Position numbers and translations under genes: made by a program
Part shown: positions 5,332 to 40,224 of the stretch, piece after piece
Numbering within the stretch: position 1 is the stretch's first letter
Layout: every line of letters starts with the position of its first letter
NCBI RefSeq assembly: GCF_014204915.1
Contig: NZ_JACHMH010000001.1
Location: 744,001-808,000 of the forward strand
Direction: 5' to 3'
Length of the DNA stretch: 64,000 nucleotides
Source: Crossiella cryophila
GTDB lineage: Bacteria > Actinomycetota > Actinomycetes > Mycobacteriales > Pseudonocardiaceae
Notes under the pieces: generated by a model
Database searches by the model: none
What the model was told of the DNA's origin: nothing
Seen by the model: the letters and a program-made list of their open reading frames with translations, nothing else

Positions 5332-5410
5332 GGCCGTAAGATCGCCGCTCGTGGCTGCGCAGCGGTGGGTGAAGGTGCCGATCGGCCCGCACAGTCCACA
5401 GTGGACAACA

Positions 5411-7001
5411 GTGCGGACCGAACGAACCGTGCTCGCGGTAGTGCACAACCTGACCGCCGCCACCCGCCTGCTCGACGTGCTGCCCCTGGTCGCCGACGAC
5501 CCCCGGGTGCAGGTGGTGTTCACCTGTCCGGGCTCCTCAGCGTTCTCCGGGCGGACCGAGGAATGGCTGCACGAGCAGGGCATGGCGGTCATTCCGTGGA
5601 GCCAGGCGATCCAGGTCGAGTTCGACCTGGTGCTGGCCGCCAGCTACGGCGGTGACCTGCGGGATCTGTTGGGCCCCTTGGTGGTTCTCCCGCACGGAAT
5701 GGGCTACAATAAATACTCGCCCGGAAATCGGAAATCGGAAATCGGAAATCGGAAATCGGAAATCGGTTTTCGGTCTTTCGCCGCGCTGGCTGCTTTCCGA
5801 CGGCGAGCTGGTCCCAGAACTGATCGTGCTCTCGCACGAGGAGCAACGCACCCGCCTGACCCAGGCCGTACCCGAGGCCGAGGGCCACACCCTGGTCGCC
5901 GGTGACCCCTGCTTCGACCGCCTGCTCGCGGGCGAACCACTGCGCCCCAGCTACCGCGCCACCCTGGGCGCCACCGACACCCAGCGCCTGCTCCTGGTCA
6001 CCTCCACCTGGGGCCCGGATTCCTTGTACGGCACCGATCCCCTGCTGATCCGCCGCCTACTCGAAGCCCTCCCCCTTGACGACTACCGGATCGCGGTCGC
6101 CCTGCACCCAGGGGTCTGGGACGCCCATTCCCGCTGGCAGCTCAAACGCTGGCTGGCCGAATGCACCCGAGCGGGCGCGATCGTGCTGCCACCGGAGGAA
6201 GGCTGGCGCGCCGCCACCATCGCCGCCGACCTGGTAATCGGCGACCATTCCAGCCTCTCGTTCTACGCCGCAGCCCTGGGTCGCCCGGTCCTACTGGCCA
6301 CCGCCCCCGCCAACACCGTCGACCCGGACTCCGCGGTCGGCAAATTCCTCGCCATAGCCCCAAAACTGGCCCCCGAAGCCGACCTCCGCAGCACAATCGA
6401 CCACACCATCGCCACCCACGACCCGACCACCACCAGCTCCGTCACCAGCCTCGCCACCTCAGCCCCCGGCCAGTCAGCTTCCTTGCTGCGCAAGGCTTTC
6501 TACGACCTCCTGCCCCTCCCCGAACCCGAAACCCCAGCCCACCTCGCCGCCCCACCCCAACCCCCAGCAGCCCCAGAACCCGTTGCCGCCCAACTGGTCC
6601 AGGTCGACCTGGACCTCCCCAAGGCCACCATCACCCGCCACCCAGCCGAACTCCTCCGCCAGCAGGCCACCATGCCGCCCGGCGCCCACCTGGCCACCAA
6701 CACCACCGAGCCCTACCGCGCCTGGCTGGACCTGGCCGAGGTGGTCCTGCACACCCACACCCCGATCACCCCGGAGTGGATCACCGCCACCCTGGCCGCG
6801 CTGCCGTCCTGCCAGGTCGCGGCGGGTCCGGTGGACGCGGACAGTTGGCTCGCGGGTACCCGGGACGGCCGGTTCTTCCGCTACCGGGCCGACGGCTTGG
6901 CCGGGCGGCTGGTGGCTTCGGTGTTGTGCGTGGCGGGGGAGTTGCCCGCGGAGCTGACCATCGAGGTCGGCGGCCGGACCGTTCAGGCAGCCCGCAGGTA
7001 G
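5411..7001 (+). CDS. GT-B-like protein A, split into two frames by a heptanucleotide repeat
   Basis: The first part (5411 to about 5763) encodes a Rossmann-like segment reading VLAVVHNLTAATRLL and later LPHGMGYNKYSP. The second part (about 5764-7001) continues in the +1 frame as VFGLSPRWLLSDGELVPE and includes GDHSSLSFYAAALGRPVLL, recalling CDP-glycerol transferase/GT-B folds. The paralogue at 11049 aligns through both halves, so this was one gene of about 525 codons. Six copies of CGGAAAT at the junction leave the halves out of frame; five or eight copies would join them. The GTG at 5411 aligns with the paralogue's start. The last 19 bp overlap the convergent NLR gene. The substrate is unknown. 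It could be phase-variable, dependent on +1 frameshifting, or a young pseudogene. Confidence 0.7.
5722..5763 (+). repeat. (CGGAAAT)x6 coding microsatellite
   Basis: Six perfect tandem copies of the 7-mer CGGAAAT run from 5722 to 5763, followed by degenerate copies CGGTTTT and CGGTCTT. Because 7 is not a multiple of 3, each copy gained or lost changes the frame of everything downstream. All three frames of the tract read the same cyclic heptapeptide NRKSEIG, so the tract itself never creates a stop. The A/T-rich units are very unlike the surrounding GC-rich DNA. Confidence 0.95.
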
Positions 7002-9082
7002 GCCACCGCACGCTGGACCTGGCGCACCAGGCCCTGTGCCGCGTAGATGTCCGCCGCGATCCGGTAGTGCCGCTGCGCCAACTCCACCTCACCCCGCGCG
7101 GCAGCGAGCCCGGCCAGGGCCTCCTGCGCCTCGCCACGATCAAAATCGCGGTTCAGCCTGGTCATCGTGTCCAGCGCGGCGGCGAGCGGTGCGCCCGCCG
7201 CCGCCAGGCGCTGGGCCTCGATGAGCTTGTTCCCCTGCCAGAGCTGGACCTTCGCCCCGTTGTACTCGTCAGCCAGCTCGCTGAAAGTCGCGGCCGCGGC
7301 TTCGAGCAGTTCGAGCGCCCGGTCCGGTTCCTCCGCCTTGGCGCAGTGGAACGCGGCGAGCGCGGTCCGGCGCTCGTCCTCGAGCACCCGCGCACCGGCC
7401 AGGTTCTCCCGCAGCAACTCCAACGCGGCCGGACTCTGCCCCTGATCCAGGCGCATGAGACCCAGCCCTTCAATCGCGGTCAACCGCGCCTCCAGGTCCC
7501 CGGACTCCCTGGCCAGCGCGATCCCCGCGTCGAAGGCACGCTGACCGGCGTCGAACTCCTCGCAGTGCCGGTGCACGTACCCGATCTGGGTCAGCAGCAC
7601 GCTTTCCACCAGCGGCGATCCCAGTAGCCGGGCGGATTCCGCCGCCGCCTCGAACACCGCCAGCGCTTCCTGGTGCCGCTTCAGCACCAGGAACAGCGCC
7701 CACAGCGTGATGCCGAACCGGACGACCTTGTCGTGCGCACCCGCCGCCTTGGCCAGTTCCACGATTGGCTGGAGGTTCTCCACCTCGACGAGCAGCCACC
7801 GCTGGGCCTTCTCCGGCTCAACTCGGGCACTCGTCCGCAGATCCGCGAACATCCTCCGGCGCCACGGCCGCTGCGAGCACAGCGTCTCGTCAACCCCGGT
7901 GCAGACGAGCAGGTAGTAGCCGACCGCCCTGGCCAGGACCGCGTCGTCGTTGTCCGCAGGGAACCGCCGCACCAGCTGGGTGGCATGCGACCGGATCCAG
8001 AGGTGCATCGCGTACCGGTCCGCCTGCGGCGGCTGCACCAGACGTCGCCGCTGAAGTTCCCGCATCCCTTGGCGCACCGCCGCTTCCGTCAGTCCGGTGG
8101 CCTCGGCCACCACCCCGACGGACAGCGCGGCGAACCCCGGGTGCAGGCCATAACAGCGGTAGCAGGCGGCGGCCTCGAACCCGAGTTTGCCGACCACCAT
8201 GTCGAAGATCGCGTCCACCGGCTCACCACCGGAGGTCAGCATCGTGGTCATGCCGTGCCCGGCCGCGCCGAGTTCGTCGAGCAGGTCCTGGAAACCGAGG
8301 CCAGGGGTCTCCAGCAGCATCGCGCGCACCGCGTCCAGCAGCACCGGCACGCCATGGCAGAGGTCGATCACGGCCTTCATCTCGGCGGCCTGCGCCGTCA
8401 TCAGCGGGATCAGCCGCGGCGCGAGAGTGAGGAACAGCTCGGCCATCTCCGGCTCCAGCGGCTCCAGCTCGATCGGCCGCGCACCGTGTGCCTCCAGTGC
8501 GGCCAGGTTGTCCGCGCCGATGGCCAGCACCACCGAACGGCCCCGCCCCGGCAACAACCTGGCCACCTGGTTGGCCGCGACGACGTCATCAAGCACCAGC
8601 AGGTATGCCTTGTCCCTGGTCAGCTCACGAAGCAGGCTGGACATCGCGTCGAAGTCGGTCGGCTGCCCGGCTCTGGCGCAGCCCAGCTGTTCCAGCACGT
8701 CGGCGAGCACCTCGGCCGCGCCGCGTGGGCGGTCGGTCCAGGCGCCGAAGTTGGCGTAGATCAGGCCGTCCGGGAATTCCTGTTCCCGCAGGTTCCCCCA
8801 GTACAGGCACAGCGCGGTCTTGCCGAATCCCCGGCCGGCCGAGATCGTCGCGACGATGGGTTCGTGCTCATCCGGCCGGTCCGGCAACAACGCGTCGAGC
8901 GCGCCCAGTGGGCCGACCTGGTTGACCAAGGTCCGCGGTCCGCTCGGCAGGCTCGGCCGCCGCACCGCGGAGAGCGAGCCGTTGTAGTTGACGTGCACGC
9001 CACCGTGCACGACACCGGCCTGGACCAGGTCGCCCATCATCTGCTCGACCTGATTCTGGACCTTCGGTTGTCCGTCCCGCAT
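6983..9082 (-). CDS. NLR-like protein 1: amyloid motif, NB-ARC, winged helix, TPRs
   Basis: The product is 699 residues. A short motif at about 13-31 (centre LVQAGVVHGGVHV) resembles a RHIM/BASS-like amyloid sequence. It is followed by an NB-ARC/STAND NTPase with Walker A GRGFGKTA (83-90), Walker B LLVLDD (161-166) and a GVP-type motif (CHGVPVLL). A winged-helix region and about 250 residues of helical TPR-like repeats finish the protein. STAND proteins are switches that oligomerise with ATP after ligand binding by the repeats; here that would align N-terminal motifs to template a partner. The ATG at 9082 follows GGGGGAG; the frame is open further upstream but that part does not look native. 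The 3' end overlaps GT-B-like gene A. Confidence 0.85.
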   Translation of the reverse strand: MRDGQPKVQNQVEQMMGDLVQAGVVHGGVHVNYNGSLSAVRRPSLPSGPRTLVNQVGPLGALDALLPDRPDEHEPIVATISAGRGFGKTALCLYWGNLREQEFPDGLIYANFGAWTDRPRGAAEVLADVLEQLGCARAGQPTDFDAMSSLLRELTRDKAYLLVLDDVVAANQVARLLPGRGRSVVLAIGADNLAALEAHGARPIELEPLEPEMAELFLTLAPRLIPLMTAQAAEMKAVIDLCHGVPVLLDAVRAMLLETPGLGFQDLLDELGAAGHGMTTMLTSGGEPVDAIFDMVVGKLGFEAAACYRCYGLHPGFAALSVGVVAEATGLTEAAVRQGMRELQRRRLVQPPQADRYAMHLWIRSHATQLVRRFPADNDDAVLARAVGYYLLVCTGVDETLCSQRPWRRRMFADLRTSARVEPEKAQRWLLVEVENLQPIVELAKAAGAHDKVVRFGITLWALFLVLKRHQEALAVFEAAAESARLLGSPLVESVLLTQIGYVHRHCEEFDAGQRAFDAGIALARESGDLEARLTAIEGLGLMRLDQGQSPAALELLRENLAGARVLEDERRTALAAFHCAKAEEPDRALELLEAAAATFSELADEYNGAKVQLWQGNKLIEAQRLAAAGAPLAAALDTMTRLNRDFDRGEAQEALAGLAAARGEVELAQRHYRIAADIYAAQGLVRQVQRAVAYLRAA

Positions 9083-9174
9083 CGCCCGCTCCCCCGTCAT
9101 CGACGAGGCCAGGCTACTCACAGGGTCACCGGGCCCGCACGATTTGTGACGAGCGGGCGAGGCGGGCGGAGTCC

Positions 9175-10257
9175 TCAGCGGACGGTGTGCCTGATCTGTG
9201 GCACCAGATCGCCCCGCCGCCCAACGCCGACCGCCCACACCGCGTTCGACCCCGGCACCGTGCTCACCGCCCTGGTCACGATCCCCGGATCGGTCAGCCG
9301 CTCCCAGCCGTTCGCGGCGGGATTCCACCGCAGCAGCACCGAAACCGCCCCCTTGCCGCCCGCGGCCAGCAACTCGCCACCGGCGGTCCGGCCGATCGAG
9401 CGCAGCCGACCGTCCGGAATGGACGGAACCCGGGTGCTCGCCCAGGTCGAGCCGTTCCAGCGCAGGGCCAGTGGCTGTTCGACGCCGTTGGTCGTGGTCG
9501 CGCCGACTGCCCAGGCCTCACTGGCGCCGAGGCTGGTCACGGCGGTGAGCCAGCTGTGGCCGGTGACGGTGGGGGCTGGTTCGGGGCGCCATTGGCCGTT
9601 GGTCAGGCGTAGGAGCAGGGGGCGTTGGGGTTGGGATGGGGTGGCGAACTGGGCGCCGACGGCGAGGGCCTGGCCCGCGCCGAGGGAGACGATGCCGTTG
9701 AGTTCGCCCTTGCCCAGGTCGGGCAGGGGCTGGCGGCGCCAGGCTGTGCCGTCCCAGCGTTGGAGCGCGGGGGTGGCGTCCTTGATCGAGCCGGGGACCG
9801 CCTTGCCCGCCACCCAGACCGCGTTGTTCTCCGCCAGGGCAAGGGATTCCGGGGTCATGGCGCCGCCGGGGTCACTGGCCAGGGTGCGGCGGATCCAGGT
9901 GGAGCCGGTCCACTGGGCGGTGCCCGCGCCCGCGGCCCACATGTCGGTGGTGGAGCGGACCGCCAGTGTCTGCGGGAAGCTCTCCGCGGGCAGGGTGGAG
10001 TGCTGGGTCCAGTTCCGGCCGTCCCAGCGCAGGGCCAGGGCGTCCACGGCGGTGTTGCCGCGCAGGCGATAACCCACCGCGTAGGCCTGGGTGTCGCCGA
10101 GTGCGGTCACCGCGGTGAGGTCGCCCTTGGCCACCGGGGTGAGCAGCGCCCGCCAGTCCTGGGCCACCGCGCTGGAGGTGGGTGCGGCCAGGATGCCCAG
10201 CGCGCACAACGCGGTCATGGTCGTCGCGGCCCAGCGCGACGCTTTCCGCCCGCTCAT
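9175..10257 (-). CDS. secreted beta-propeller-like repeat protein
   Basis: The 360-residue product starts with a signal peptide ending near SSAVAQ. It then shows repeated blocks of about 45-50 residues of the type A-V-T-A-L-G...A-W-A-V-G...L-R-W-(D/N)-G-(R/S)-x-W, repeated about six times. This is typical of secreted Kelch-like or YVTN-like beta-propellers; no enzyme motif is seen. Its start overlaps the stop of the upstream dioxygenase gene (ATGA), so the two are coupled. The pair sits between the two NLR modules without obvious relation to them. Binding of glycans or proteins outside the cell is possible but is inference. Confidence 0.7.
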   Translation of the reverse strand: MSGRKASRWAATTMTALCALGILAAPTSSAVAQDWRALLTPVAKGDLTAVTALGDTQAYAVGYRLRGNTAVDALALRWDGRNWTQHSTLPAESFPQTLAVRSTTDMWAAGAGTAQWTGSTWIRRTLASDPGGAMTPESLALAENNAVWVAGKAVPGSIKDATPALQRWDGTAWRRQPLPDLGKGELNGIVSLGAGQALAVGAQFATPSQPQRPLLLRLTNGQWRPEPAPTVTGHSWLTAVTSLGASEAWAVGATTTNGVEQPLALRWNGSTWASTRVPSIPDGRLRSIGRTAGGELLAAGGKGAVSVLLRWNPAANGWERLTDPGIVTRAVSTVPGSNAVWAVGVGRRGDLVPQIRHTVR

Positions 10258-11048: not shown

Positions 11049-12690
11049 ATGTCGACGCGCCAGGACACCCGCCGGGTGCTCTTCGTCGTGCACACGGTGG
11101 CCTCCGCCAACCGGCTGCTGGACCTGGTGCCGATATTCGACTCCGACCTCCGCGTCGAACTGCTTTTCACCTGTCCGGACGCCTCGGCCATTCCCACCGG
11201 GGTCGACCACTGCTTCGCCCAGCTCGGCATCCTGCCGATTTCCTGGACCCAGGCGCTGGACAGCAAGTTCGACCTCGCGATCACCGCGAATCACCGGGGC
11301 GACCTGCGTAAACTCAGCGCGCCGCTGATGATTGTCTCGCATGGCGTCGGCTATACTAAGAATTCAGCCCGGAAAACGGAAAACGGAAAACGGAAAACGG
11401 AAAACGGAAAACGGAAACACGGTCTACGGTCTGACCCGGGACTGGCTGTTGCACGATGGCGAGGTCATCCCGGACGCCCTCGTCCTTTCCCACCGCGAGC
11501 AGTGGCACCGGCTGGCCCGTGACGTGCCGGAGGCGCTCGGCACCGCCGTGCTGGCGGGCGACCCGTGCCTGGACCGCCTGCGCGCCAGCGCCTTCCTGCG
11601 CGAGCGCTACCGGGAACGGCTCGGCGTGCGCCCGCACCAGCAGCTGGTGGTGATCTCCTCCACCTGGTTCAGCCGCTCGGTCTTCGGGTCGTGGCCGGAC
11701 CTGTTCCGCCAGCTCATCGCCGAACTCCCGGCCGATGAGTACCGGGTGGCCGCGATCTTGCACCCGCACGTGTGGTTCGGGCACAGCCCGCATCAGCTGC
11801 GCCTGTGGCTGGCCGACTGCCTGCGCGCCGGGCTGCTGCTGGTGCCGCCGGTGGAGGGCTGGGGCGCGACGCTGGTGGCCGCGGACGTGGTGGTCGGCGA
11901 TCACGGCGCGGTGACCACCTACGCGGCCGCGCTGGACCATCCGGTGCTGCTGGCCGCGTTCCCGGAAACCGATGTGGCACCGGGGACCTGCGTGCACGAG
12001 CTGGGCAGGCGGGCGCCGCTGCTCGACCGGGACCGCCCGCTGCGCCCGCAGCTCGACCAGGTCATCGCCGGGTTCCGGCCAGGTCAGCACCGCGCGGTCG
12101 CCGACCTGGTCACCGACCTGCCGGGAGAGGCGGCCGCCCGGCATCGCGCGCTCGCCTACGAACTGCTGGGCCTGGCCGAACCGGCTGAGCCGGTGCTGAC
12201 TCCCCCGCTCGACCCGGATCGACTGGTCCCCGACACCCATGGAAAACCCGGTTCCGCCTTGGCTTTCCGGGTCACCGGCGGCCGTCGGGCGGACGGTGTG
12301 GTCACCCTGCGGCGGCATCCGGCCGATGTGTTCCGGGCCCGGCCGCTGGCCGCGCCCCGGCTGACCGACCAGCACCTGGTGGTGCACACCGAGCACCCCG
12401 ACCCGGCACTGCGGCAGGCCGCGGAGATCGTCTTCTGTCACCCGGCGGAACTGGGCGGCGGTCCGGAGATCCTGTTGGCGGCCAACCCGTTCTGCACCAT
12501 GCTGGCCGAACTGACCGCCGAGGGCTGCCTGCTGCACCACCGCGACGGCACCCGATCCCGGCTGACCCCGGAAGCCGCCGTCGACCCGCTGGTGCTCGCC
12601 TCCGCCGCGTTCCTGCACGAGCAGCTGCCGGCACGGTTCGTGGTGCAGGTCGCGGCGCAGCGGGTGGTCGTCCGGGTGACGCCCGGCTAG
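11049..12690 (+). CDS. GT-B-like protein B, split into two frames by a heptanucleotide repeat
   Basis: This is a paralogue of the gene at 5411-7001. The first part (11049 to about 11411) reads VLFVVHTVASANRLLDLVP and VSHGVGYTKNS. The rest (to 12690) is in the +1 frame and reads VYGLTRDWLLHDGEVIPD, HPHVWFGHSPHQLRLWLAD and GDHGAVTTYAAALDHPVLL. Six copies of CGGAAAA at the junction put the downstream half out of frame by the same offset as in paralogue A; five or eight copies would fuse them. The stop codon overlaps that of the convergent NLR gene 2 (CTAG). Function is unknown; a nucleotide-sugar or CDP-alcohol transferase-like fold is inferred. The matching disruption in two diverged copies argues against a chance sequencing error. 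Confidence 0.7.
11370..11411 (+). repeat. (CGGAAAA)x6 coding microsatellite
   Basis: Six perfect copies of CGGAAAA run from 11370 to 11411, followed by one degenerate copy, CGGAAAC. The encoded heptapeptide is KRKTENG in every frame, similar to NRKSEIG in the paralogue. Position in the gene, unit length, copy number and resulting frame offset all match the tract at 5722-5763, although the unit differs by one base. Confidence 0.95.
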
Positions 12691-14753
12691 TCCTCGATGC
12701 CGAGCCGCGCGTTGATCTCCCGGATCGGTTGCCGGTACTGGTCTTCTCCGGTGAGATCGGCCAGCAGGCGCAGCACGGTGAGCATGCTGCGCAGCGAGCC
12801 GTCCGCGGTGAAGATCGTCAGCGCTTCGCGCAGCACCTCGACGGCGCCGGGATCGGCCAGACCGGCCAGTGCCTCGCCGTTGACCTGCAACACCTTCGCC
12901 CGGTTGTCCGACTCGCCAGCGGTGTCGAAGAAGCCCGCGATCTCCGGCTCGGCCAGCTCGCGCACCGCGTCCTCGAACCGCCGCTGCGCCACGAACAGCC
13001 GGGCGCGCTGCAGCCGGAGCAGGGCCAGCATGCGTGGGCGTTCCGCGGCGGGCGCCTCGAACGCGGCCGTCCAGGACTGCTCGTAGCAGGCCAGCGCGCC
13101 CTCGGCATCGCCAAGCCTGGCCCGGATCTTGCCCAGCCACTCGTGGCTGCTCTGCACCTGGATCAACCCGGCCTCGCCACCGAGTGTCCCGGCGATCTCC
13201 AGCGCCTCCTGGAACTCCGCAGTGGCCAGCGTGTACTCGCGCACGGCGAAGTGCGCGGACCCGAGCTGGGACAGCATCCGCATGATCGCCGCCGGGTTCT
13301 CCGCCCGGCGCGCGGCGACGAGTCCGGCCCGGTGCGTGGCCAGCCAGTCCTCGTAGTGCCCGTGCACGTGCAGCAGGCCCCACATCGCCTCGCAGAGCTG
13401 CCAGGTCAGGTCGTGGAGCAGGTACTCCTCGGCCTGGAAGACGGCCAGCCGCAACATCTCGCGCTGCTGTTCGAGCTGGGCGAGCAGCCCGGCCCGCCGC
13501 ACCCGGTCGGCCAGGTCCATCGAGAGGTAGGGCAGGTACAGCGGGTTGATCCGCGGCCGCCTGGACAGTCGGGCGTCTTTGTCCACAGTGGACCGCAGTG
13601 CCTGGGTGAGGATCCGCTCGACGGTGCTCCGGCGTTCCGGCTCGGGCAGGGCGGCCTTGACCTCGGCCCGCGCGTGCCACCACACCGGCCGATCGAGCCG
13701 GATCTGCTCGCCGTCCTCGGTGACCAGGTTGGCCCGCACCAGCTGGTCCAGCGCCCGCCGGGCCGCTCGCTCGGACAGTCCGGCCAGGTCCGGCAGGTCG
13801 GCGATCCCGGCCACCGGCGCCGGGTGCAGGCCGAACAGCCGGAAGAGCAGGGCCGCGTCCGGTTCCAGCCGCCCGCAGACGAGCCGGAGTCCCTTGACGA
13901 CCAGCTCCTGGTCCTCAACCTCCAGCGCGTCCAGCCCCAGCTCGACGAACTCCCGCAGGTCGCGCTCGGTACGCCGCGGATCCTGGTGGAACAGCCCCGC
14001 CAGGATCTTGATCAACTGTGGACTGCCATGGCAGCGGGCCAGCGCGGTGGCCACCAGCTTCGGCTCGGCCTGGTCGAACCGGTCCCCGGTCAGCTTGCGG
14101 AGCAGTTCGGCGTCGTGCGGCTCGGTCATCCCGGCCACCTCCAGCGGGATGAAGGCTTCCCGTTCGAGCCAGCGCTGCCGCTCGTCCGCGATCACCACCA
14201 GCGCGGATCCCGGTGAGTTCGCCAGGAACGGCTCGATCTCGGTCCGGTCGCGCACATCGGTGAGCACGATCAGCAGCTGCCGCGAGGCCATCAGGGTGCG
14301 CAGCCGCGCGGCCTGCTCGGCCAGACCGGCCGGGATCTCCGCCCTGGGCACCCCGAGCGCGGCCAGCGCCTCGCGCAGGGTGGCCGCCGGGCCGAGCCGG
14401 TCATCGCGTTCCGCCCTGGACAACGAGATGTACAGCGTCCCGTCCGGGAACAGCGCCTCGTGGTCCAGGCCCGCCTTGGTGACCACGCTGCGCCTGCCGC
14501 TGCCGATCCGGCCGTTGACCGCGATCCTGGCCAGGCGCACCTCGGCCAAAGCGGCTTGGAACTCCCGCTCCAGGGCGGTCAACAGGTGGTCCTGGTTGGT
14601 GTACCGCGGATCAGGGGCAGGGAGGTGCCGGGGGATCTCCGCCCGCGGCACGGTGTTGATGGTCAGCGACTCGATGTCCCTGGCCAGGACCGCGTTGCCG
14701 AGCACATCACCGCTGATCGAGTTCTGTGTCCCGTCCCCCTGCTGCTTCGCCAC
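12687..14753 (-). CDS. NLR-like protein 2: amyloid-like motif, degenerate NB-ARC, TPRs
   Basis: The 688-residue product begins with NSISGDVLGNAVLARDI (residues 11-27), which matches the C-terminal motif of the 115-residue protein at 4984 (NHISG...GNVVQARDI). A STAND-type NTPase follows, but the Walker A reads GRIGSGRRSV (81-90), with arginine where lysine is expected. The Walker B region is LLIVLTDV rather than the usual LLVLDD. Winged-helix and TPR-like repeats complete the protein. It may bind nucleotide weakly or act as a partner of an active NLR. The start is the GTG at 14753. It overlaps GT-B-like gene B by four bases at the stop codons. Confidence 0.8.
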   Translation of the reverse strand: MAKQQGDGTQNSISGDVLGNAVLARDIESLTINTVPRAEIPRHLPAPDPRYTNQDHLLTALEREFQAALAEVRLARIAVNGRIGSGRRSVVTKAGLDHEALFPDGTLYISLSRAERDDRLGPAATLREALAALGVPRAEIPAGLAEQAARLRTLMASRQLLIVLTDVRDRTEIEPFLANSPGSALVVIADERQRWLEREAFIPLEVAGMTEPHDAELLRKLTGDRFDQAEPKLVATALARCHGSPQLIKILAGLFHQDPRRTERDLREFVELGLDALEVEDQELVVKGLRLVCGRLEPDAALLFRLFGLHPAPVAGIADLPDLAGLSERAARRALDQLVRANLVTEDGEQIRLDRPVWWHARAEVKAALPEPERRSTVERILTQALRSTVDKDARLSRRPRINPLYLPYLSMDLADRVRRAGLLAQLEQQREMLRLAVFQAEEYLLHDLTWQLCEAMWGLLHVHGHYEDWLATHRAGLVAARRAENPAAIMRMLSQLGSAHFAVREYTLATAEFQEALEIAGTLGGEAGLIQVQSSHEWLGKIRARLGDAEGALACYEQSWTAAFEAPAAERPRMLALLRLQRARLFVAQRRFEDAVRELAEPEIAGFFDTAGESDNRAKVLQVNGEALAGLADPGAVEVLREALTIFTADGSLRSMLTVLRLLADLTGEDQYRQPIREINARLGIED

Positions 14754-37386: not shown

Positions 37387-40224
37387 GTGCCGGACGACCA
37401 CCGCGAGGGCGGCTACGGTTCCCGCTCCGGACGACGTCGGCGGGCCGAGGACGACACCCCCGATCTGGACCAGCCGAGCAGGCGCCGCCGGTCACTCGAC
37501 GACGGTGGCGGCACCTCGGTCTCGGACCTGCTCGCCAAGCACGGCGGCACCTCCGACAAGCTCCCCCGCCCGACCCCGCCGCCGCCCGCGCGCGATCTTT
37601 CCCCGCCTCCGCTGCCGCCCGTGCCGCCGATGCCGCCCAGGGAGAGCGCGCCGCCGCCCATGGCGCCGCCGCAGATGCCGCCCCCGCAGGGTCTGCCGTC
37701 GCGCGAGCCCATGCCGCCGAGGGACGCGCCGCCGATGCCGCCCAGGGGCGCGCCGCCCAGGGCCCAGCCGCCGCGACCGCCGATGCCGCCGCAGGGCGAT
37801 CTCGGTCAGCCGACCGGTGGGCGGATGCCCGGTGGCGAGCACGGGCGGATGCCTGGTGGCGATCCCGGCCAGCCGTTGCGGCCGCCCATGCCGCCGCAGA
37901 CAGACCTGAACCAGCCCAGTGGCGGCCAACTGCCGCCGCCCCGGTCCGCGCCGCCACGGCCGCCGCGGGGACGGCCGCAGGGTGGACCGCCCCCTGGTGG
38001 GCCATCGCAGGGTGGACCGCCGCTTGGCGCGCCGCCGCAGAGTGGGCCGCCGCCGTTGGACCAGCCGTCCAATGGCGGGTTCGCCGCGCTGGACGAGCCG
38101 TCCCGGCCGCCCGGCCCGCCGCCGGGGGTGCGCCCCGGTGGGCCGCCGCCGGGCAACCGGCCGATGCGGCCCGGCCCTCCGGTGGACCAGCCCTCGCGGC
38201 CGGCGATGCCGATGGAGCCGCCGCGACCGGGGATCGACCAGCCTTCTCGCCCTGCCATGCCCGCTGGCCAGCCGCCGCGGCCGCCGCAGGGCGGACCGCC
38301 CCAGGGCGCACCCGGACAGCCGCCAGCCGGTGCCCGGCCCGGTAACCGGCCGCCCGCGAAACCCGCCAAGCCGGCCGAGCCCGTTGTCGACGGGGAGATG
38401 GACGACAAGCGGCGCAAGATCGACGCGACGCTGTCCCGGTTCTCCGCCGTGCACGACGAGATGGCCGAGATCGAGGAGGCCGAGCGGGAGCGGCGCGGCA
38501 AGCTGACCCAGTTCATCCGGATCGGCGGCAAGGACAAGGACAAGGGCGACAAGCCGGCGGCCAAGGACGAGCCCGCGGAGCAGACCCAGCTGGTCGAGCG
38601 GCCCGGTTCGGTGGACGTGGCCACCGTCGGGGTGCCCTACCACGAGCTGGTCGAGGACGACGAGGACGAGCCGCCGCGCGAGCCCGCCTACGCGGGCCCG
38701 CCGCCCGAGGACGAGCCGGACTCGCTGCGCAAGCGGCGGCTGGTGCTGGTCGGCAAGGCGCTGGCGATCGCGGTGGCCGCGATCGTGCTGGTGGCCACCG
38801 GGATCGGCTGGGCAGGCAAGCAGTGGTTCAACAGCATGATCCGCGAGGTGTCCGCCCTGGACCCGAACGCCGATGAGATCCAGGACAAGGACAAGCAGTA
38901 CGGCGCGGAGAACTTCCTCATGATCGGCTCGGACAGCCGGGCCGGGGCCACCGCCGAGGACGGCGTGGGCGATGAGAAGATCGCCGGCGGCGCGCGCACG
39001 GACACCGTGATGGTGGCGCACGTGCCTGCGGACCGGAAGCGCGTGGTGATCGTGTCCTTCCCGCGCGACATGGATGTCACCATCCCGGCCTGTGAGGGCT
39101 GGGACGCCAAGACCGGCAAGTACACCGGCAAGACCGAGCCGGCGCGGAAGAACCAGAAGCTCAACTCGGCCTACGCCATCGGCGGCCCGAAGTGCATCAC
39201 CAAGCTGGTGCTGCAGCTGTCCGGGCTGAACATCAACCACTTCGTCGGCATCGACTTCCACGGCTTCAAGGCCATGGTGGACGCGATCAAGGGCGTCGAG
39301 GTGTGCGTGCCCAAGCCGATGATCGACGAGAAGATCGGCCCGGTGATCACCCAGACCGGGCGGCAGACCATCTCCGGCGACACCGCGCTGAGCTACGTGC
39401 GGGCGCGCACGCTCAAGGGCGACCCGATCCAGAGTGACTACGGCCGGATCCAGCGGCAGCAGAAGTTCCTGTCCTCGTTGCTGCGCAAGGTGATGTCCCA
39501 GCAGGTGCTCACCAGTCCCGGTCAGCTCCAGGACTTCGTGAAGGCATTCGCGGGCTCCACCTACGGCGAGAACATCGGCATCGACCAGATGCTCACCCTC
39601 GGCACCTCGTTGCAGGGCCTGGAAGCCGGGCGGGTCACCTTCGTGCAGGTGCCGGTGCGCACCGTCGAGGTCGGCAAGGGCTACCGCGAGGAGTTCCGGG
39701 AGAAGGACGCCAAGAACCTGTTCCAGGCGATCATCAACGGAACCCCGCTGCCGCATGAGAAGCCGGCCGGTGGCGGCAACCAGAACCCGTTGCCGCAGGC
39801 GCAGAACAACCCGCCAGCCGACCTGAGCCCGGCCGCGCTGGTGGACCCCAAGACGGTGAAGATCCAGGTGCTCAACGGTTCCAACAAGGCAGGCAACGCG
39901 AACAAGGCGGTCACCGGCCTGGAGGAACTCGGTTTCTCGGTGGTGAAGAAGGGCAACTCGCCGACGCCGAGCGACAAGACGGTGATCCGGTTCAGCGATG
40001 AGCGCCGGGACGCCGCGCGCACGCTGGCCGCCTCGGTGCCGGGTGCCACGATGACCCCGGATCCCAGCATGGGCGGCTCGATCCAGCTCGTGCTCGGCCC
40101 GGAGTTCGACGGCAAGATCGTCAAGCCGGGCAACGGATCCGGCGGCGGTGGCACGCCGACCTCGACCCCCAAGCTGCCCGGTGATCTGTCCACTGTGAAC
40201 GGTGCCGACAACAGCTGCACCTGA
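37387..40224 (+). CDS. LytR-CpsA-Psr wall-polymer ligase with giant proline-rich N-terminus
   Basis: The 945-residue product has a cytoplasmic Pro/Gly/Met/Gln-rich region of about 330 residues, then a charged stretch and one transmembrane helix (about 452-482). The LCP domain follows (IGSDSRAG, RTDTVMVAHV, VSFPRDMDV, NHFVGIDFHGFKAMVDAIKGV), then a LytR_C domain (KIQVLNGSNKAGNA). LCP enzymes attach lipid-linked glycopolymers such as arabinogalactan to peptidoglycan. The GTG at 37387 follows GGAAGGAG. Typical family members have far shorter cytoplasmic tails, so this one may bind signalling or division proteins. Confidence 0.9.
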   Translation: MPDDHREGGYGSRSGRRRRAEDDTPDLDQPSRRRRSLDDGGGTSVSDLLAKHGGTSDKLPRPTPPPPARDLSPPPLPPVPPMPPRESAPPPMAPPQMPPPQGLPSREPMPPRDAPPMPPRGAPPRAQPPRPPMPPQGDLGQPTGGRMPGGEHGRMPGGDPGQPLRPPMPPQTDLNQPSGGQLPPPRSAPPRPPRGRPQGGPPPGGPSQGGPPLGAPPQSGPPPLDQPSNGGFAALDEPSRPPGPPPGVRPGGPPPGNRPMRPGPPVDQPSRPAMPMEPPRPGIDQPSRPAMPAGQPPRPPQGGPPQGAPGQPPAGARPGNRPPAKPAKPAEPVVDGEMDDKRRKIDATLSRFSAVHDEMAEIEEAERERRGKLTQFIRIGGKDKDKGDKPAAKDEPAEQTQLVERPGSVDVATVGVPYHELVEDDEDEPPREPAYAGPPPEDEPDSLRKRRLVLVGKALAIAVAAIVLVATGIGWAGKQWFNSMIREVSALDPNADEIQDKDKQYGAENFLMIGSDSRAGATAEDGVGDEKIAGGARTDTVMVAHVPADRKRVVIVSFPRDMDVTIPACEGWDAKTGKYTGKTEPARKNQKLNSAYAIGGPKCITKLVLQLSGLNINHFVGIDFHGFKAMVDAIKGVEVCVPKPMIDEKIGPVITQTGRQTISGDTALSYVRARTLKGDPIQSDYGRIQRQQKFLSSLLRKVMSQQVLTSPGQLQDFVKAFAGSTYGENIGIDQMLTLGTSLQGLEAGRVTFVQVPVRTVEVGKGYREEFREKDAKNLFQAIINGTPLPHEKPAGGGNQNPLPQAQNNPPADLSPAALVDPKTVKIQVLNGSNKAGNANKAVTGLEELGFSVVKKGNSPTPSDKTVIRFSDERRDAARTLAASVPGATMTPDPSMGGSIQLVLGPEFDGKIVKPGNGSGGGGTPTSTPKLPGDLSTVNGADNSCT

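Follow-up and report, generated by a model that had tools for sequence, protein, structure and literature searches.

A Putative Repeat-Switched, TagF-Like Gene Family Convergent With NLR-Like Genes in Crossiella and Other Actinomycetes

Gene A of Crossiella cryophila is almost certainly a phase-variable (contingency) gene in which a tract of tandem CGGAAAT units acts as the frame switch, a reading that rests on natural alleles in related genomes. The gene lies in a 64,000-nucleotide stretch of contig NZ_JACHMH010000001.1 (assembly GCF_014204915.1, positions 744,001 to 808,000), hereafter the window. Its product appears to resemble GT-B transferases of the TagF type, and the evidence as a whole makes it rather probable that the gene is the repeat-switched component of an amyloid-NLR conflict module, a TagF-like GT-B partner to the NLR. 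Four elements of this reading are shown by the sequences: the tracts, the natural occurrence of alleles in frame and out of frame, selection on each half of the gene, and conserved convergence with an NLR-like gene.

The Tract and the Split Frame

Six perfect CGGAAAT units occupy positions 5722–5763, where the reading frame of gene A shifts, as the preliminary description had claimed; the exact run extends to 5766 (Table 1). The conserved domain of gene A begins at about 5429, the N-terminal half ends in HGMGYNKYSP with the tract directly after it, and the C-terminal half is conserved from about 5766 on. That all frames of the tract are open and encode the same peptide is likewise borne out: no frame contains a stop codon and, because 7 = 1 mod 3, each yields the same rotated heptapeptide (RKSEIGN). 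No second site with three CGGAAAT units in a row exists in the 10.06-Mb genome.

Whereas the preliminary description had the gene A tract right, the tract of gene B, the pairing with NLR-like genes, and the putative upstream effector were absent from it. In gene B, a paralogue in the same window, the tract lies at the homologous place, likewise at a frame change, and both genes are OFF in the window assembly. Six family members are present in this genome, five of which carry an array (Table 1).

Table 1. Features of the window and further family members in the C. cryophila genome
Feature	Position	Strand	Details
Putative BELL-like effector, 115 aa	4984..5331	+	RHIM/BASS-like motif NHISGKVTGNVVQARDIHGDIRF at the C-terminus; distance to gene A domain 86 nt
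Gene A, N-terminal half	5351..5905	+	Frame 2; aligns with family model positions 2–113
Gene A, C-terminal half	5652..7001	+	Frame 3; aligns with family model positions 107–506
CGGAAAT tandem tract (predicted gene A frame switch)	5722..5766	+	Exact period-7 run, 45 nt, 6.43 copies
NLR-like NB-ARC/TPR protein converging on gene A	6983..9328	-	19-nt overlap of the 3′ ends; motif GDLVQAGVVHGGVHV at the N-terminus
Gene B (gene A paralogue), N-terminal half	11049..11522	+	Frame 3
Gene B, C-terminal half	11332..12690	+	Frame 1
CGGAAAA tandem tract (predicted gene B frame switch)	11370..11417	+	6.86 copies
Second NLR-like protein, converging on gene B	12687..14753	-	4-nt overlap of the 3′ ends; motif NSISGDVLGNAVLARDI at the N-terminus
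Genome member	5.17 Mb		8-bp array, 11.62 copies; 5′ region
Genome member	6.00 Mb		CCCGAAT, 7.14 copies; internal tract, frame-split
Genome member	6.78 Mb		Without array
Genome member	7.21 Mb		GAGCCGG, 19.86 copies; array in 5′ region

Other repeat-bearing sites were also noted in this genome. Imperfect repeats of 9–30 bp cluster at 37609–38312 of the window, possibly encoding a proline/glycine-rich protein. At about 4,579,448 (locus L190, 14448–14497), outside the gene family, an 8-bp array of CGACCGAG (6.25 copies) lies amid degenerate CGACCGA..GGTTGG repeats between ORFs named by eye as MarR-like and DJ-1/PfpI-like.

Natural ON and OFF Alleles

Alleles of sister species were compared among Crossiella genomes, and alleles at strain level in a family member of Streptomyces anthocyanicus. 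The 11 internal-tract genes of five Crossiella genomes comprise five that are ON (one open frame) and six that are OFF (split). The gene A array is present in the assemblies of four species, with 6.43 copies and a split frame in three of them (G000, G002, and G004) and 5.43 copies in the fourth (G003), where the gene is a single open frame of 594 aa; this is a natural case of the claim that five copies restore the frame. Gene B is split at 6.86 copies in G000 and at 6.43 in G004, and open at 5.86 copies in G002 and at 5.43 in G003. The closest named relative found, Crossiella sp. S99.2 (probably identical to G002), has a gene B orthologue that is 96% identical, contains 5.86 copies, and forms one open frame.

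A tblastn search of plasmid records found seven with a relative, and five were examined (L205–L209). Two of these (L205 and L206) come from the S. anthocyanicus strains NBC 01668 and NBC_01372. In the stretch around the gene, which spans 2,000 nt, 1943 of their 1944 aligned bases agree, i.e., they differ by one substitution, and their sole length difference is 56 nt, which equals eight units of GCCGGGA (17.57 versus 9.57 copies) and is drawn as two gaps in the BLAST alignment. L206 forms one open frame with a full CDS in the public annotation, whereas L205 is split and the CDS of its C-terminal half alone is annotated. The flanks diverge more than the gene: the 2,004 alignment columns upstream contain 18 mismatches along with 14 gap positions, and the 2,601 columns downstream contain 20 mismatches and one gap position. 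The other three relatives are split (L207 and L208) or whole (L209). Repeat counts in other isolates had been suggested as a check, and copy number and frame state do vary, both between sister species and between the two S. anthocyanicus strains; together with the equal constraint on the two sides of the tract, these differences back the phase-variable layout proposed at the outset.

Selection on Split Genes

When gene A of G000 is compared with that of G002, both of them OFF, dN/dS is 0.215 for the C-terminal part (408 gap-free codons) and 0.222 for the N-terminal part. Loss of conservation downstream of the tract, one of the two marks by which a plain pseudogene was to be recognized, is not what these values show, and a plain pseudogene would not retain such constraint on both halves. 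Among nine pairs compared, dN/dS of the C-terminal part ranges from 0.13 to 0.50, the highest values being those of B_G000/B_G004 (0.50), B_G003/B_G004 (0.47), and the third gene (0.45).

Distribution of the Family and Position of the Tracts

A profile built from five intact members finds the family in at least 183 of 297 sampled genomes of the host's taxonomic family (E 1e-3) and in at least 40 of 394 sampled genomes of the class Actinomycetes, in 15 of 138 genera (E 1e-20). Members were sampled non-randomly from the best-scoring matches listed (up to five candidates per genome in the taxonomic family and up to three in the class), and 60 further loci were taken best-first among the taxonomic-family matches listed; outside the genus set, split (OFF) members are therefore under-sampled, and the lack of a match in a genome is not firm evidence that the family is missing there. 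The 108 non-redundant members, counted after leaving out 19 duplicate locus ids by hand and then one weak, one edge, and two duplicate rows, include 49 with an internal array (period 7 in 40, period 8 in eight, and period 5 in one), 21 with an upstream array, and 38 with none. With 28 members added from the class search, the total is 136 (63 internal, 25 upstream, 48 without array), a count from which L140 was removed as a repeat of L119 and which includes a few partial genes (e.g., L153, L155, L158, and L160). The description of the layout as rare in actinomycetes thus needs to be changed, as within this gene family arrays are common (88 of 136). Since 48 members have none, switching is inessential to the family.

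Internal tracts begin at +300 to +312 of the family model in 61 of 63 cases. The internal set among the 136 was restricted to periods indivisible by 3; in unfiltered scans, no array with a period that is a multiple of 3 begins at the internal site, and L145 has a 9-bp array that starts 45 nt after the beginning of its 7-bp array. Repeat units vary widely, and all 88 lack stop triplets, as against 83% of shuffled internal units. The DNA that flanks other family members (854,210 bp) contains eight exact arrays with period 6 and one with period 4, and none with period 5, 7, or 8 (at least three copies and 18 bp). The family's tract is therefore far above chance expectation. A 400,000-bp sample of the window's genome has eight arrays (four of period 6, one of period 7 with 3.43 copies, one of period 5, and two of period 8); exact short-period arrays are rare in this genome, yet they occur outside the family too.

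On a tree of the C-terminal part (FastTree), array presence requires 26 changes, at least 20 of them forced by starred branches, which suggests that tracts have been gained and lost and their units replaced while the site has stayed fixed. The sole 5-bp internal array (GCCGA, 15.6 copies, at +303 of L111) has as its nearest tree relative L118, which carries an 8-bp array at the same site. L113 and L122 are loci with a pair of family genes whose starts are some 4 kb apart, duplicated modules like those of the window; the arrays of the L113 pair differ, and in the L122 pair one gene has an array and the other has none.

Upstream Tracts

The 25 upstream arrays lie in the 5′ region and have periods of 7 or 8 only (e.g., L017). 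A TANNNT hexamer, most commonly TAAGAT, is present within 26 nt before the tract in 20 of the 23 genes with enough sequence, against a background of 1.5%; the position of this −10-like box just before most of the tracts suggests that they start close to the site of transcription initiation. Stops close the frame between tract and gene in 12 of the 25 genes, so that a direct frame switch does not account for these. An in-frame ATG or GTG occurs at −60 to −66 in 13 of 25. ATG or GTG lies between the −10 box and the tract in six of 25, and in one of these it is in frame and open to the gene; a simple switch of a leaderless start was considered and fits few of the upstream tracts. Upstream arrays often end ahead of a likely start codon, and periods that are multiples of 3 are absent.

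The GT-B-Like Protein

Residues invariant among 38 members include HG, H, Q, GD, D, TW, HP, W, D, and G, which we take to be colinear with the motifs of TagF. PF04464 (Glyphos_transf, TagF) matches 10 of the 38 weakly (best E 7.8e-4), below the curated cut-off of 22.1 bits where bits are given (P0002, 14.2; L009, 16.9), and hhalign against one true PF04464 member gives a probability of 5.8 and a P of 0.0065 with colinear motifs. Searches of Pfam, NCBIfam, PADLOC, and PDB sequences gave no family assignment.

The structure model is of low confidence (pLDDT 58.8, pTM 0.36, 7-row alignment) and the tract falls in a part of it where confidence is very low (residues 99–124), directly after the HG at 98–99. 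A Foldseek search of this poor model against PDB has TagF at the top (E 7.6e-7; TM-scores 0.27–0.30 by query length), and its further matches are mostly HepE, UDP-GlcNAc 2-epimerases, MshA, and LpxB, plus some unrelated chains, complex I among them; given the quality of the model, the fold matches serve as support only. The label GT-B-like, which had been attached to gene A from the start, therefore finds tentative support at the level of fold only, and the switched protein, as modeled, resembles a TagF-like GT-B and is not called a TagF. At E 1e-10, 20 of the 21 genomes searched lack a PF04464 protein, the window's own genome included, and the family therefore does not appear to be the host's ordinary teichoic polymerase; that identity for gene A is disfavored.

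The Convergent NLR-Like Gene and the Putative Effector

Each of the two window genes faces an NLR-like gene on the opposite strand (Table 1). The partner of gene A matches TPR_12 (E 5.5e-5) and NB-ARC (E 7.7e-4), and that of gene B matches TPR_2 (E 2.6e-5) and NB-ARC (E 0.085), all below the Pfam cut-offs; the real start of the former is probably downstream of the ORF start. Among 59 loci of 17 kb, 55 have one protein cluster of NLR type (NB-ARC/TPR) no farther than 2.5 kb away, and one has it at a distance of 4 kb or more; no other listed neighbor cluster is found within 2.5 kb in more than six of these loci. By a strict count, an NLR match is downstream, on the opposite strand, and within 2.5 kb in 100 of 108 genes (42/46 plus 58/62), the remaining eight having no NLR (four) or an NLR upstream (four). 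In 20 loci of other taxonomic families, 18 of 21 genes have a convergent NLR, with a weak match in L162 (64.7 bits) and another 1.4 kb away.

A V/x-Q-A-G-type motif precedes the P-loop in 32 of 55 NLRs (regular expression; shuffle mean 1.19), the L098 match being spurious by eye. The motif appears, by eye rather than by published profiles, to resemble the RHIM-related BASS motifs treated in the review PMC7889193. The putative effector upstream of gene A has no Pfam match and no PADLOC match. A profile seeded with two proteins that sit upstream of family genes matched 16 ORFs in the loci, and every one of the 16 precedes a family gene in the same orientation, at a distance of 35 to 691 nt; a small effector-like gene thus precedes 16 of 136 family genes and was not found by profile upstream of the other 120, in a count in which many loci reach 1.5 kb beyond the gene and seven of the 16 matches come from the 17-kb loci. 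To judge from these motifs, the NLR-like gene, the candidate effector, and the third, switched gene have the layout of an amyloid signalosome with an addition. PADLOC applied to eight proteins found no Pgl/BREX family, and its sole match was a generic TPR (E 8.9e-4) in one NLR.

In the two S. anthocyanicus plasmids, the NLR position holds short hypothetical CDSs alone (L205, 5247–5916; L206, 5191–6013) in a feature table that omits pseudogenes; at this position, a convergent gene for an ATP-binding (NLR-like) protein is present in three other Streptomyces plasmids. The partner in S. anthocyanicus has perhaps decayed. Near the family gene of these two plasmids, a large gene is annotated as a toxin glutamine deamidase domain protein (L205, 1–1208; L206, 1–1214).

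A Model for Switching and Its Alternatives

Gain or loss of a 7-bp unit, presumably by slipped-strand mispairing, would move the C-terminal half of gene A in or out of frame, and one clone should then hold both ON and OFF cells. As the tract follows the invariant HG in a loop that is unstructured in the model, in-frame repeats would only extend a hydrophilic linker. The GT-B protein may act together with the convergent NLR in an amyloid-signaling conflict module (defense or cell death), and switching may arm only some hyphae, thereby spreading cost or evading counter-adaptation. The link from the switch to NLR function is the weak step of this explanation; judging from synteny, it is equally plausible that the switched protein serves the NLR and that it does not.

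Surface-polymer variation is a rather unlikely alternative in which the GT-B protein adds decorations to a polymer of the wall or capsule, switching alters phage receptors or antigens as at classical contingency loci, and the NLR is a guard or a neighbor, in either case independent of the switch. The TagF-like fold matches and the weak PF04464 matches agree with it, as do glycosyltransferase-like clusters (named by eye) in eight of 59 loci, three of them within 2.5 kb, and the account in PMC3711429, as excerpted, that most known phase-variable genes encode proteins facing the cell's surroundings. Against it stands the neighborhood itself, in which an NLR is paired with nearly every gene under the strict count and every other listed cluster lies within 2.5 kb in six loci at most.

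Programmed ribosomal or transcriptional frameshifting, by which a split gene would still yield the full protein, could account for selection on both halves of OFF alleles, but it is very improbable: tract members occur in frame as well as out of frame within the genus, units differ among members, and tract length itself switches the frame between the S. anthocyanicus strains. Still less credence is due to an assembly or sequencing error in the window's repeat number; although repeats are error-prone, the gene A array recurs in the assemblies of four species, and two plasmid records differ by exactly eight units. A pseudogene or a neutral repeat expansion, which the two split window genes and the drift of copy number among species might suggest, is virtually dismissed by the constraint on both sides of the tract in OFF alleles of gene A, by the recurrence across families of the same site with almost only periods 7 and 8, and by intact alleles that retain the tract.

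Relation to Known Systems

Contingency loci based on simple sequence repeats (SSRs), e.g., in Haemophilus, Neisseria, and Campylobacter, contain tetranucleotide or homopolymer tracts. The present family shares with them a pure tandem repeat, a unit that is not a multiple of 3, ON/OFF control by frame, and several loci per genome. It differs in its 7- to 8-bp units that vary by member, in the location of the tract in a mid-protein loop or beside a −10 box, and in its occurrence in high-GC actinomycetes with a convergent NLR partner. TagF/TarL CDP-glycerol glycerophosphotransferases (PF04464) provide the best fold matches and colinear motifs (hhalign), whereas the family falls below the Pfam cut-off and contains some 140 residues toward the C-terminus that match no family. 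SSRs of 6–9 nt are, in the portion of PMC4692102 consulted, rarely reported in bacteria, and frame-split gene clusters have been classified, some of them as phase variation (PMC3711429, in part).

The actinomycete precedent is pglX of the Streptomyces coelicolor Pgl/BREX system, described in the relevant part of PMC4365076 as a phage-defense gene for a DNA methyltransferase with a G8 tract that switches at 10^-2 to 10^-4. Gene A is likewise an actinomycete gene with a variable tract, unlike pglX in encoding no methyltransferase and in its unit, and no Pgl/BREX family is among the eight proteins scanned. For soil actinomycetes, pglX is the only tract-switched gene among the literature matches listed. 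The BASS/BELL amyloid NLR signalosomes of actinobacteria (Dyrka et al., 2020, as covered by PMC7889193) combine an NLR bearing an N-terminal RHIM-like motif with a small protein bearing a C-terminal motif, as the present modules appear to do; in the sections consulted they differ from the present modules, which add as a third component a repeat-switched GT-B-like gene that faces the NLR gene tail-to-tail, and in which a putative effector was found upstream in 16 of 136 cases. BASS3 is presented as a RHIM-related motif of multicellular bacteria (PMC7885112, excerpt), and the biological role of RHIM/BASS-motif NLR genes in bacteria is called an open question (PMC7889193). A diversity generator is also coupled to an NLR-type conflict system in the STAND sensors of multicellular bacteria diversified by DGRs, which act by reverse-transcriptase mutagenesis of the sensor, as far as the excerpt of PMC10907252 goes, and not by repeat-number switching of a partner gene. 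Glycosyltransferase domains occur in NTP-dependent conflict systems (PMC7159879), and tandem repeat, slippage, and frameshift were not found in the main text of that article as retrieved. Among the titles and opening lines of abstracts of the open-literature matches listed, a repeat-switched family of NLR partners is not described.

Significance

The proposed module, a repeat-switched, TagF-like GT-B gene beside an NLR, would represent a family of contingency genes that spans several families of the class Actinomycetes and is tied to NLR-type genes with RHIM/BASS-like motifs. As natural ON/OFF allele pairs exist (e.g., in the two S. anthocyanicus strains), the switch is directly testable. More tentatively, and with the balance somewhat against it, repeat number might encode a heritable state of immunity or self-recognition in multicellular bacteria, with several NLR modules in each hypha and independent switching of their partner genes, so that a colony would be a mosaic of armed and disarmed genotypes. 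If so, such a mosaic may limit the spread of phage or mark kin, somewhat like the incompatibility NLRs of fungi.
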